From Bacteroidales bacterium (GTDB lineage: Bacteria > Bacteroidota > Bacteroidia > Bacteroidales > P3), in assembly GCA_017940465.1 (NCBI GenBank), contig JAGAYN010000010.1, forward strand, positions 1 to 34,671: a stretch of DNA of 34,671 nt. Direction: 5' to 3'. The position numbers were made by a program, and so were the translations under genes. The notes under the pieces are model-generated. The model did not search any database. It had not been told where the DNA came from and saw nothing but the letters and a program-made list of their open reading frames with translations. Below are positions 1,941 to 19,314 of this stretch, piece by piece (positions within the stretch are counted from its first letter, which is position 1; each line of letters starts with the position of its first letter).

Positions 1941-4900
1941 CTATCGCACCATCATCTTGGTGGCGGCGGTGTGGCCGCCGATGATGACGTTGACCAGGTA
2001 CATGCCCTTGGAGAGGCCCTCGGTGGAGAGGGTGAACGACTGCTTGCCCTCGGTGGCGTAGCCCAGGTTGCGGTCCACAACGCAACGGCCGTTGAGGTCG
2101 TAGACACGCAGGACGGCGCGGCCGGCCACAGCGGAGGTCAGCTCAAGGGTGGCCTCGGTGGTGACGGGGTTGGGATAGAGGCTGACGCTGTTGAGGCCGA
2201 CACCGCTGACGGTGGGGATGCCGACAACAGGAGTATAGTCCACCGAGTCGACAATCTCATTGACACGGTCGGTGACATAGCTCATGTCCATGAAGACACC
2301 GCGGCCGTTGGTGCCGAAGTAAATGGCGCGCGGCCACTTGGTCTTGGCAAAGACGTAGTTATTGGCGTTGATGCCGATATGGCTGAGGTTGCGGCGGAGG
2401 GGGAGCTTCTTGGTCTGCTGGAACATGGCGGTGACCGGAATCTCGGGGATTTTCTCATAGAGCTGCCATTGGCTGTTGCCCTGCTTGGTGTAGACACCCT
2501 TCTCGGTACCCACGTAGATAATGCCGGTGGAATCCTCGACCAGGGCGCAGTAGGCAGGAATCTGGGGAGCACTCTCCAGAGCGATGGGGACGATGGTGGC
2601 GGTGCTGCTGGCATTCTCCACAATCATCACATTGGGGCTGATATCGACATAGCTGAAGCCATCGAAGGTGAGAATGAGGCGGTCCTCGCCGGCACGCGGG
2701 TCGACGGCGATGGAGCTGATGCCGCGCGGGATCCACTTGTTGCCTGCATACTTGAGGGTGTCCACCTTCAGCTCACGGAAGTCGTTGCGGTAGGTCATAG
2801 CCTTGCACAGCTGGTCGCCATTGGGGTTGGAGAAGTCCATCTTCTCGAAGCCGCTGATGCGGAAGAGCATGGAGCGCTGGTTGCTGAGGTCATAGGCGCT
2901 GACGTAGACGTAGCGGCCGTTGTTGCTGATGACGGCGTTGCGGACGTAGGTGTTCTCGAACTCGGAGCCTGTATAGCGGCTGATGGCGAAGATGGGGGCC
3001 CACCAATGGTACTTCTCAGCCTGCTCGGAAGAGAGCTGCGTGCCGGAGGTGCCAGACTCCCACACCTTGGTGAAGTCGGTGGCGGACCAGGAATACCATA
3101 CGGCCGAGGTCGCGACGGCAGCCTGGCCATCGTAGGCGACGGTGACCATACGGGACTGGACGGGGTTGCGCACCACGATGCTGTCGCCCGCCAGCTGATT
3201 GGCGGTGAACTCATACTCGAAGGGGTAGTCGGCGTGGCCGCGGCTGGAGAAGACGGCACGGTCGTGGGCCTTGATCTGGAACTTGGAGCCACGATTGGCG
3301 CCGTTGGAGGCGGCATTGATCCAGATGGTGTCCCACTCGCCGGTGCTTTCGTTGCGGCGGAAGATGTAGCCGAGGGTGTCGATAGCGGCCTTGACGGTGC
3401 TGTTGAAGACGGTGTTGGTGTCGGTCTCCCAGAGGTAGAGTTGGCCGAGGGTGGGGCCGCCGGAGATGGCGTCGGTCATGAAGCTCTGGCCGGTAGTCCA
3501 GGTGGTGGTGTTGAGGTAGTCCATATAGTCGGCATAGGAGCGGCCGAGCATGGCGTTGCCGGTCGAGGTGAAGATGGTGCGGCGCGACTGCGGGGCGTAC
3601 TGCTGGAAGGAGGAGGTGGCCACCTGGCCGCCGTCACCCGCCTGCCAGAGTACGTTGGCGTCGTGGTTGAAGTTGCCCAGCGAGCCGTCGTCGAACCACG
3701 AGAGGCGGGGCTCGCCGCCGACGTGGGTCAGGATGGGCTCGATGATGGGGCAGCTGTTGCCGTCGGCGCCGAGCAGGACGGTGCCGTCAGGGGCCACGGA
3801 GAGGCCGTTCACGCTGATGGTGTTCAGGCCGCGGTTGACGTTGGCATAGCCGTTGAAGAACTCGTTGGTCTCGAAGACGCCGCCGTTGGTGGCGATGTAG
3901 AAGCGGTTGTAGAGTTCGCCTTCATAGGTGAACGGAACGGCCAGCAGGTCGTTGATACCGGAATGGACAAAGCTGGAATTGTTGAACACGCGGTCCATGT
4001 AGTCGCCCGTGACGGGGCGCTGGTACATGAGGCTGAACTCGTTGGAGGAGGCGGCGGTCCACTGGTAGTAGGAGTTCTCCACATAGCCCTGGCCGATCCA
4101 GAGGTCGGTGCCGCCGATGATGATGCGTTTGGGGTTCTTGGGGTCCACGCAGAGGGTGCCGGAGGTGGTGCCGGAGGTGTAGGAGAAGGGGAGGACCGAG
4201 GAGGTGGTGAGGGTGGTCCAGGTCTGCCCGTTGGTGGTGAGGTAGACACCTGCCATGTAGCCGTACCTGTTGATGGCCATGGCATAGAGGTATTCCGGGT
4301 CGTTGGGGGCCACGGCCAGGAGGAAGGTCGCGTTGTCGATGAAGTCGGGATTGGAGGTGGTGATGTCCACCACCGAGGCGGCGATGGCGTCGTCGGGCAG
4401 CGTGGCGTCGCCTATGCGGTAGAGCTTGGCGCCCTCGGGATCCATGGCGCCGTACGCCACGGTGGAGGCATAGACGATGCGGTGCTGGCGGACCACCTTG
4501 ACGTCGCGGATGGTGCCGGGCACCACCTGCACGCCGAGCTGGTAGCCCCAGGCACCGCCCTGCACGTCGCTGTCGGCCACAGCCCAGCGGTAGAGGCCGT
4601 CGGTGGCGGCGACGAAGAGGTAGGTGGTGTCGTTGCGACGGATGTAGTCGAGGGCGTAGATGCCCGAGAAGCGGTTGTCGTCGGTCTCGGCGAGCATGGT
4701 GAAGGAGCCGTCGGCGGGGTCGTAGCGGAAGACGCCGCAGCCGCCGCGGTTGAGGCTGTACATGCTGCTGCCGAAGTTGCCCAGCGGGGCGCCGGTGCCG
4801 ATGAAGATGGCGCCGTCAGGGGCGGCGATCATGGCGTTGATGGGGAGGGCCACCTCGCGCCCGTCTTCCTCGCGGACATAGCGGATGTAGTGCCACATGT

Positions 4901-5198
4901 CGAGGGTGCCGGCGAGCTGTTCGCGGCGGGCCTGGCCCATCCGCTCGTCGCGGGAATAGAGTGCGCGGAGCACGTCGGGGTTGGTGGTGCGGACGAAGAG
5001 TCCGCCGTTGGCACTGCCGGCGTAGATGGTGGTGTCGCCGGGCTGAAGTGTGCCGAGGGCGAGGCTTGTTACCTTGCCGCTGATGTTCGTGGGGCCGATT
5101 TCATAGAAATTGCTATCCGCGTTCTGGGCGGTCGCCGACCCTCCGGCCAAAGTAATCAGGCCCACAAAGAGGCCGAACAATACTCTGTTTTTCTTCAT
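1941..5198 (-). CDS. Secreted beta-propeller-like protein with T9SS type A sorting domain (1085 aa)
   Basis: A signal peptide (MKKNRVLFGLFVGLITLAGG, ending near SATAQ) is followed by a long region beginning EIGPTNISGKVTSLALG. Repeated blocks such as TTIYAGSANGGLFV, GAIFIGTG, RIIIGGTDLW and GIIYVGTEKGVY have the spacing of BNR/sortilin-like beta-propeller blades. The last 75 or so residues start SVSLYPNPVTTEATLELTS and end GMYLVNVIIGGHTAATKMMV, a type A T9SS C-terminal sorting domain. The protein should cross the outer membrane by T9SS and be anchored at the cell surface or released. No catalytic motif was recognised, so the substrate or partner is unknown. It is a single-gene unit with a -7 element upstream and a hairpin downstream. 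Confidence 0.85.
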   Translation of the reverse strand: MKKNRVLFGLFVGLITLAGGSATAQNADSNFYEIGPTNISGKVTSLALGTLQPGDTTIYAGSANGGLFVRTTNPDVLRALYSRDERMGQARREQLAGTLDMWHYIRYVREEDGREVALPINAMIAAPDGAIFIGTGAPLGNFGSSMYSLNRGGCGVFRYDPADGSFTMLAETDDNRFSGIYALDYIRRNDTTYLFVAATDGLYRWAVADSDVQGGAWGYQLGVQVVPGTIRDVKVVRQHRIVYASTVAYGAMDPEGAKLYRIGDATLPDDAIAASVVDITTSNPDFIDNATFLLAVAPNDPEYLYAMAINRYGYMAGVYLTTNGQTWTTLTTSSVLPFSYTSGTTSGTLCVDPKNPKRIIIGGTDLWIGQGYVENSYYQWTAASSNEFSLMYQRPVTGDYMDRVFNNSSFVHSGINDLLAVPFTYEGELYNRFYIATNGGVFETNEFFNGYANVNRGLNTISVNGLSVAPDGTVLLGADGNSCPIIEPILTHVGGEPRLSWFDDGSLGNFNHDANVLWQAGDGGQVATSSFQQYAPQSRRTIFTSTGNAMLGRSYADYMDYLNTTTWTTGQSFMTDAISGGPTLGQLYLWETDTNTVFNSTVKAAIDTLGYIFRRNESTGEWDTIWINAASNGANRGSKFQIKAHDRAVFSSRGHADYPFEYEFTANQLAGDSIVVRNPVQSRMVTVAYDGQAAVATSAVWYSWSATDFTKVWESGTSGTQLSSEQAEKYHWWAPIFAISRYTGSEFENTYVRNAVISNNGRYVYVSAYDLSNQRSMLFRISGFEKMDFSNPNGDQLCKAMTYRNDFRELKVDTLKYAGNKWIPRGISSIAVDPRAGEDRLILTFDGFSYVDISPNVMIVENASSTATIVPIALESAPQIPAYCALVEDSTGIIYVGTEKGVYTKQGNSQWQLYEKIPEIPVTAMFQQTKKLPLRRNLSHIGINANNYVFAKTKWPRAIYFGTNGRGVFMDMSYVTDRVNEIVDSVDYTPVVGIPTVSGVGLNSVSLYPNPVTTEATLELTSAVAGRAVLRVYDLNGRCVVDRNLGYATEGKQSFTLSTEGLSKGMYLVNVIIGGHTAATKMMVR

Positions 5199-5251: not shown

Positions 5252-5259
5252 CAAAGATA
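5252..5259 (-). promoter_or_regulatory. Bacteroidota -7 promoter element for the 1941-5198 gene
   Basis: On the minus strand the sequence is TATCTTTG, an exact match to TAnnTTTG, the -7 element recognised by the Bacteroidota primary sigma factor. It lies 53 bases before the ATG at 5198, giving an AT-rich leader. No TTTG -33 element is visible at the usual spacing. Confidence 0.6.
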
Positions 5260-5343: not shown

Positions 5344-5425
5344 CTCCGAGACAACTCCGTGTCAACTCCGAGTCAACTCCGAGTTTCTCCGACACACGTC
5401 CGAGTCATGTCCGACACCCCTCCGG
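5344..5425 (+). repeat. 11-bp-period tandem array, copy A
   Basis: The word TCCG recurs at 5345, 5356, 5367, 5378, 5388, 5399, 5410 and 5421, so spacing is 11 bases with one step of 10. The first units are near-identical (GTCAACTCCGA type) and the later ones degenerate outside TCCG. The core 5344-5384 matches 17300-17340 at 40 of 41 bases. Both copies have the same orientation and lie upstream of a plus-strand promoter. The function is unknown; the spacing close to a helical turn would place the words on one face of the DNA. Confidence 0.85.
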
Positions 5426-5469: not shown

Positions 5470-5477
5470 TATTTTTG
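5470..5477 (+). promoter_or_regulatory. -7 promoter element for the moxR-bat operon
   Basis: TATTTTTG matches TAnnTTTG exactly and lies 45 bases before the moxR ATG at 5523. No good -33 TTTG is visible at about 19 bases upstream. The 11-bp array ends about 45 bases upstream and could therefore influence this promoter. Confidence 0.6.
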
Positions 5478-5522: not shown

Positions 5523-6514
<992 letters not shown>

Positions 6515-6518
<4 letters not shown>

Positions 6519-17288: not shown

Positions 17289-17299
17289 CCACAGACCAA

Positions 17300-17349
17300 C
17301 TCCGAGACAACTCCGTATCAACTCCGAGTCAACTCCGAGTCAATACCGA
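17300..17349 (+). repeat. 11-bp-period tandem array, copy B
   Basis: TCCG recurs at 17301, 17312, 17323 and 17334, and ACCG at 17345, all exactly 11 bases apart. Positions 17300-17340 match copy A (5344-5384) at 40 of 41 bases; the only difference is A at 17317 against G at 5361. The copy lies between the operon-ending hairpin and the korAB promoter, in the same orientation relative to the downstream gene as copy A. Confidence 0.85.
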
Positions 17350-17402: not shown

Positions 17403-17432
17403 TTTGTGGGTAAGTTTTATTTTGTACATTTG
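17403..17432 (+). promoter_or_regulatory. korAB promoter (-33 TTTG and -7 TAnnTTTG)
   Basis: TTTG at 17403-17406 and TACATTTG at 17425-17432 are separated by 18 bases, close to the consensus Bacteroidota promoter. The predicted start leaves a leader of about 40 bases before the korA ATG at 17476. Confidence 0.75.

Positions 17433-17475: not shown

Positions 17476-19314
<1,839 letters not shown>

Follow-up and report, generated by a model that had tools for sequence, protein, structure and literature searches.

The window, 34,671 nucleotides long, is all of contig C4 in the 2.24-Mb draft of a Bacteroidales genome (coded G000), and carries two intergenic arrays of the word TCCG repeated at a pitch of exactly 11 bp. 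They belong to a family dispersed over this genome and found in related species, where the pitch is kept. In G000, the register continues outside the array core; three species show little variation in the number of words, and the arrays tolerate widely differing spacers. It is quite conceivable, at somewhat less than an even chance, that the array is a DNA site read once per helical turn by an oligomerising protein, with an effect on the host. Most of the genomes studied are incomplete drafts, and among the named relatives MAGs prevail.

Arrays in the window

The two arrays and the features around them are listed below.

5252..5259, minus strand: promoter-like −7 box TATCTTTG, facing the gene at 1941–5198
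5344..5384, plus strand: core of array 1, TCCG at 5345, 5356, 5367 and 5378, pitch 11
5388..5425, plus strand: second part of array 1, TCCG at 5388, 5399, 5410 and 5421 after one 10-bp step
5470..5477, plus strand: promoter-like −7 box TATTTTTG of moxR, 92 bp past the last core TCCG of array 1
5523..6518, plus strand: moxR-type AAA ATPase gene (start codon at 5523), the first to follow array 1
17297..17349, plus strand: array 2, four AACTCCG units and a degenerate ATACCGA unit
17425..17432, plus strand: promoter-like −7 box TACATTTG, 91 bp past the last core TCCG of array 2
17476..19314, plus strand: gene for a 2-oxoacid:ferredoxin oxidoreductase subunit (POR, POR_N), the first gene after array 2

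All eight TCCG positions given for array 1 in an earlier, sequence-only reading of the window proved correct, and so did its second copy: positions 17300–17340 repeat 5344–5384 with a single mismatch, the second unit having A instead of G. The setting between divergent promoters is borne out as well, a promoter-like −7 box (TAnnTTTG) being present on either side of the 5344 array. In the window, a search for three TCCG words at pitch 11 gives six matches, every one inside arrays 1 and 2; in 100 dinucleotide-preserving shuffles of the window, it gives none. The spacers in the second part of array 1 are unlike those of the core, and its one-base shift is seen again downstream of other cores in G000.

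The moxR gene has a match in all 41 genomes of the genus, the match in G015 and G024 being a paralogue only, with about 46–47% identity. Array 2 is situated at a synteny break. The genes up to 17238 keep their neighbour order in most relatives examined, and none of the genes from 17476 on was matched at more than 50% identity in the compared stretches of 11 relatives.

Arrays across the genome

The genome-wide search proposed in the sequence-only reading revealed a dispersed family rather than just two copies. Counting as an array any group of at least two AACTCCG words, we found 42 of them in the window and 38 selected stretches of G000; together with the species-specific families in the genus, this agrees with the earlier suggestion of a dispersed repeat family. 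All but one of the 42 arrays are outside called genes, the remaining one being inside a called frame. In the whole genome, the pattern CTCCGNNNCAACTCCG matches 120 times and four TCCG words at pitch 11 match 91 times, with zero matches for the reversed controls. The unit variants follow a largely common order, with AGAC first, TATC or TGTC next and two AGTC last. Five places, on contigs C6, C9, C28, C37 and C49, hold a second subfamily, whose spacers are different (e.g. AGAATAC and TGATTGC).

The TCCG register extends beyond the cores. Upstream of the 42 cores, at distances of 8–120 bp, 39 of the 61 TCCG words fall into one of the eleven possible registers, and 27 of these 39 are located beyond the unit adjoining the core. 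Downstream, 39 of 56 occupy the register shifted by one base and nine the exact register; the shifted register comes largely from one subfamily with common letters. The words CGGA, GCCT and TCGG show no register like that of TCCG around the G000 cores. Also in register are CTCC, a word overlapping TCCG, and, on the downstream side, ACCG (12 of 21).

Several arrays are close to contig starts (C21:283, C27:138 and C45:188 in G000; C12:73 and C18:73 in G012), hence the assembly may break at arrays. The arrays at the ends of C21, C27 and C45 in G000 suggest that some arrays are missing from the draft assemblies.

Distribution in the genus and beyond

Four TCCG words at pitch 11 were found in 19 of 61 genomes, and all 19 belong to the genus of the window, from which 37 genomes had been searched. 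There were 624 overlapping matches in the 61 genomes vs 33 for the reversed pattern, 17 of the latter in G003; eight of the 19 genomes have at most three matches apiece. At pitch 10, the same four words matched six times, in two of 41 genus genomes, with 16 matches for the reversed pattern. The five-word pattern matched in eight of 393 genomes of the order and its reversed control in four. As G000 accounts for 34 of these matches, G376 for 22 and each remaining genome for at most three, the pattern is near background outside the genus. An exception is a Dysgonamonadaceae MAG (JAISYU), found via the pattern itself, with arrays at three loci; at two of them, L098 and L126, the arrays are long, with 17 and 23 TCCG words at pitch 11.

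The letters of the spacers are species-specific: TCCGRGGATGG in G010, TCCGTAACAAC and TCCGACACAAC in G012, and TCCGCTTGTTG in G376. A related pattern, CTCCGNNNCAACTCCGNNNCAACTCCG, occurs in at least 96 stretches of named genomes, in a scan that may omit records of the window's own genome. Among the matches listed, 83 are from Bacteroidota by title and 13 are not, and several of the listed Bacteroidota stretches come from the rumen or reticulum. Viral contigs yielded three pattern matches. We found no description of 11-bp-period intergenic arrays in Bacteroidales in the literature searched, which covered few subscription papers.

The 11-bp period irrespective of the letters

The 11-bp period is not confined to TCCG. 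In stretches of 11 relatives not picked for arrays (those of G003, G023 and G028 with a known array being excluded), 35 of 284 intergenic regions contain an array at lag 11. The respective numbers for lags 9, 10, 12 and 13 are 4, 1, 1 and 0. Intergenic autocorrelation has its highest value at lag 11 in G000, G012, G010, G023 and G028 and its second highest in G376, with the stretches of G000, G012, G010 and G376 being partly array-selected, and one in five of the G023 and G028 stretches holding moxR with a known array. Lag 11 stands out only weakly in G001, G003 and G009, and not at all in the autocorrelation of G115 and G219, which represent another genus of the family, and of G042 and G059.

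In a local scan, 13 of the 14 samples from the genus (all but G030) had intergenic lag-11 arrays, as did one of four samples from outside it (G042, with two arrays, one of them an AT repeat). Copies scattered at random inside genes, an outcome considered in the sequence-only reading, did not occur, as no genic lag-11 array was found in any of the 18 genome samples. A looser filter turned up two genic lag-11 stretches in G000, where 159 kb of coding sequence was covered, and none in another eight samples from the genus.

Other periods are seen too. Several members of the genus also have many intergenic arrays with periods of 7/14 and 8/16 (for period 7, eight in G001, 12 in G023 and seven in G002), and the two genomes from the other genus of the family, G115 and G219, have intergenic arrays of period 21 (four and five, respectively) rather than 11.

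Word number, spacers and inverted repeats

Word numbers were counted in chains of at least three TCCG words at the exact pitch, so that only intact chains are represented and decayed arrays would escape. As the words are exact by selection, the weight rests on the distribution of chain lengths. In G010, 27 of 33 chains have five words, as do 16 of 20 in G012; in G000, 45 of 54 chains have four or five, and in G376 all eight do. The distribution is wide in UBA2939, from three to eight words, with four or five in 13 of 24 chains. In CAMJJD, there are three, three and five chains of three, four and five words, respectively, that is, five words in five of 11.

The spacers may change while the number of words stays. 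Among 30 intergenic arrays of G010, likewise located by intact TCCG chains, three (L229, L231 and L348) depart from the majority type in most of their spacers, one of them keeping a single majority-type unit, and still contain five words. In two orthologous arrays of G433 and G012 (n=2), the phased TCCG is kept and both the spacers and the word number have changed.

The lack of an inverted repeat, noted earlier for array 1, holds for G000 in general: the median inverted-repeat score of its arrays is 8 vs a shuffled mean of 6.5, and none of 41 reaches 16. Scores of at least 16 are rare also in G001 (0 of 11) and G010 (2 of 14). They are frequent in G376 (9 of 9), G028 (9 of 12), G023 (5 of 8) and G009 (6 of 9), and are seen in 8 of 17 arrays of G012 and 4 of 17 of UBA2939; in the control, four single-letter shuffles per array, none reached 16. 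Since the array forms one arm of a hairpin in several relatives and mostly not in G000, G001 and G010, it is the pitch, and not the hairpin, that is the constant feature.

Palindromes of G012 take two forms. A sharp-ended perfect palindrome of another 11-bp unit, TTACGGTAGTA, is present in three copies in 140 kb (L223:9945, L224:16485 and L225:17163), and one of these copies has a change matched in both arms. Besides, many arrays of G012 (e.g. L094, L107, L113 and L132) are flanked at one end by a palindrome like TTAGGTCGCGCACGACCTAA.

Placement relative to genes and promoters

For these analyses, genes were called with a simple codon-usage caller. In tandem gene contexts, arrays point with the genes in 17 cases vs 4 against in G000, and in 8 vs 4 in G010. 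The density of arrays per kb, in a partly selected set, is 0.90 in tandem, 1.30 in divergent and 1.06 in convergent intergenic regions; of the 31 arrays of G010, 13 are in divergent ones.

An exact TAnnTTTG box is situated at most 140 bp downstream of 21 of the 42 G000 arrays, whatever gene follows; four of these boxes (L021 minus, L023, L026 and L036) are outside the tally restricted to the interval between an array and its codirectional gene. The distances from core to box cluster at 66–69, 79–81, 90–92 and 103–105 bp (n=20, with one duplicated locus collapsed). Compared with uniform distances in a post hoc test, the scan gives p 0.0003 with the best period of 11.9; for set periods, p is 0.006 at 11 and a non-significant 0.19 at 10.5, and for the largest number in a 4-bp window it is 0.03. 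An earlier run with 16 distances gave p 0.003. Hence the array-to-box distances in G000 look quantised, in this post hoc comparison. No clear direction or clustering of edge-to-box distances was seen by eye in G010, G012, UBA2939, G376, G028 and G023.

Strict conservation of position between species is not supported, array positions turning over among orthologous intergenic regions. Out of 167 orthologous pairs, which are not independent, 34 have an array in both regions, 36 in one and 97 in neither, and the presence of arrays tracks the length of the region. Upstream of moxR, an 11-bp array with unrelated letters is present in eight of ten orthologous regions, a number that includes UBA2939, chosen because of its array, and G001, whose array is weak; inspection by eye shows an array there in further species too. 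Other families of intergenic regions show mixed presence.

A common regulon was considered and rejected. Out of 31 codirectional downstream genes, all but moxR were scanned against Pfam, and these 30 share no function or pathway; two of them have no Pfam match. Homologues of topA, gyrA, uvrB, mfd and recJ are among the genes downstream of arrays, in a number too small to build on.

Candidate proteins and known systems

No reader protein was found. HTH_17, taken as a stand-in for BldC/Xis-like head-to-tail binders, is not supported as the reader, there being no match in the array-bearing genomes G012, G018, G020 and G025. The Y1 (RAYT-like) transposase family PF01797 is present in 28 of 41 genus genomes, with six matches in G000. 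It is unsupported as a general cause of mobilisation, because several array-rich genomes, namely G009, G019 (81% complete) and G028, have no match to it. None of the six G000 loci has a TCCG array. The stretches of two of them, L278 and L291 (at 5047), contain another 11-bp array, as do L274, L283 and L289 among the 20 loci L271–L290. At L278 (G000:C10 near 24384), the Y1 transposase gene is near a long 11-bp array of the TACCTTCCTGG type.

At parC, a single centromere-like locus, ParR cooperatively binds 11-bp direct repeats. The arrays of G000, by contrast, are 42 and dispersed over the chromosome, and no partition families are among the Pfam matches of the 30 downstream genes. In MraZ boxes, several short words are read at about one turn, with pitch 10, at one or few promoters per genome, whereas the arrays described here have pitch 11 and number dozens per genome.

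BldC is described as forming head-to-tail oligomers along DNA; in an extended promoter complex its molecules are one DNA turn apart, and one of its targets has 9-bp direct repeats (PMC11963761). Winged-HTH proteins of the BldC/RdfS/Xis type resemble the predicted reader in direct repeats and one-turn spacing, but the spacing here is 11 bp and HTH_17 does not track the arrays. From a Bacteroidales genome, that of Porphyromonas gingivalis, the BrickBuilt MITE is described as a dispersed, always intergenic tandem repeat of a 23-nt brick, with a leader and a tail that have terminal inverted repeats; the description covers one species (PMC4596501). On this account, our arrays are similar in being dispersed and intergenic (41 of 42 in G000) and differ by the 11-bp pitch, the lack of inverted repeats in G000 and the change of letters from species to species. 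REP/REPIN elements with RAYT are species-specific intergenic palindromes of high copy number (PMC3733652), whereas the G000 arrays are direct-only, and the available portion of that source mentions no 11-bp unit. CRISPR repeats, given there as 24–48 bp long and separated by spacers (PMC3733652), are ruled out by the 11-bp unit.

Explanations of the arrays

In the proposed mechanism, a short word, TCCG in G000, would be presented on each helical turn, exactly every 11 bp, and usually four or five times. An oligomerising DNA-binding protein would bind head-to-tail, contact the word and tolerate very different spacers. The dispersal, the exact pitch, the limited word number in three species, the continued register, the freedom of the spacers and the intergenic position are observed; the protein reader, its oligomerisation and its effect on transcription or architecture are inferred, as the best-rated account. 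A head-to-tail oligomer with one contact per turn would account for how exact the pitch is, how little the word number varies and how freely the spacers change, and for the way the arrays point in G000. Since in G000 they are mostly upstream of a promoter and facing it, any effect is likely to be on transcription or local DNA architecture. Within a species, the spacers would be homogenised by copying or gene conversion, with the word and the pitch kept, and so would come to differ between species. A simple regulatory reading is opposed by the unrelated adjacent genes and the turnover of positions. The phased cooperative binding suggested from the sequence alone gains support from the register beyond the core, the narrow range of word numbers in three species and the diversity of tolerated spacers; no function shared by the downstream genes emerged.

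In the main rival explanation, which we regard as possible but less likely, the arrays are a small MITE- or REP-like non-autonomous mobile or self-amplifying repeat, often palindromic. The mobilising enzyme would make its contacts at the words, and the host would gain nothing. A mobile, palindrome-prone repeat would explain the copy number, the species-specific letters, the turnover of positions between species and the hairpins. Indeed, dozens of G000 copies have a largely common order of unit variants, and the density per kb is alike in all classes of intergenic regions. Inverted repeats are present in G376, G028, G023, G009, G012 and some arrays of UBA2939; sharp-ended palindromes occur at three G012 loci, and many G012 copies have common flanks and a conserved palindrome. 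On the other hand, inverted repeats scoring at least 16 are few in G000, G001 and G010, simple copying fails to explain the five words in the odd-spacer arrays of G010, the Y1 transposase is missing from the matches of array-rich G009, G019 and G028, and inspection by eye showed no target-site duplication at any of the three palindromes with sharp ends. At that, the protein-site and mobile readings may both hold, the words being possible contact sites of a mobilising enzyme.

Action of the array as RNA seems unlikely, be it a rut-like region for Rho loading with a UC or CC word every 11 nt, or a transcribed stability hairpin. Regularly placed pyrimidine words are the spacing rule of rut sites, and here such words number mostly four to six. 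In tandem contexts of G000 and G010 taken together, 25 of 33 arrays run in the direction of the genes, and in many tandem cases the array follows the upstream gene. However, divergent intergenic regions are about as array-dense per kb as convergent ones and hold 13 of 31 arrays in G010, where the array strand is G-rich; the exact pitch would be unexpected, and hairpins would hide a rut site. Moreover, above the Rfam gathering score, the window has no matches and seven other loci have only four tRNAs. An ordinary functionless minisatellite, born of replication slippage, is disfavoured and seems very improbable, despite the head-to-tail units in intergenic DNA, the wider word numbers in UBA2939 and the 17 and 23 words in the Dysgonamonadaceae MAG, as one unit is dispersed over 42 arrays of G000, chains in G010, G012 and G000 vary little in their number of words, and period 11 is favoured whatever the letters.

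Returning to the oligomeric reader, it can be extended to a code of the whole genus, a speculation that we rate as rather unlikely. Only the 11-bp pitch, a short word and the number of about five words would be heritable, all other letters being replaced in each species, and the reader, an as yet undescribed oligomeric protein, would act at intergenic sites numbering from dozens to over a hundred in each genome, organising transcription or chromosome folding.

If a protein reads only the four-letter word and the pitch, the arrays would offer naturally occurring sites, of a number that can be counted, on which head-to-tail DNA–protein filaments could be studied. They would also exemplify a whole set of binding sites that changes its letters between species with the geometry kept. 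If the arrays are mobile, they would represent a class of repeats, frequent in one gut genus, for which the literature searched offered no description. Either way, they occupy many of the longer intergenic regions in genomes of the genus, and can be tested in cultured relatives or with synthetic arrays.
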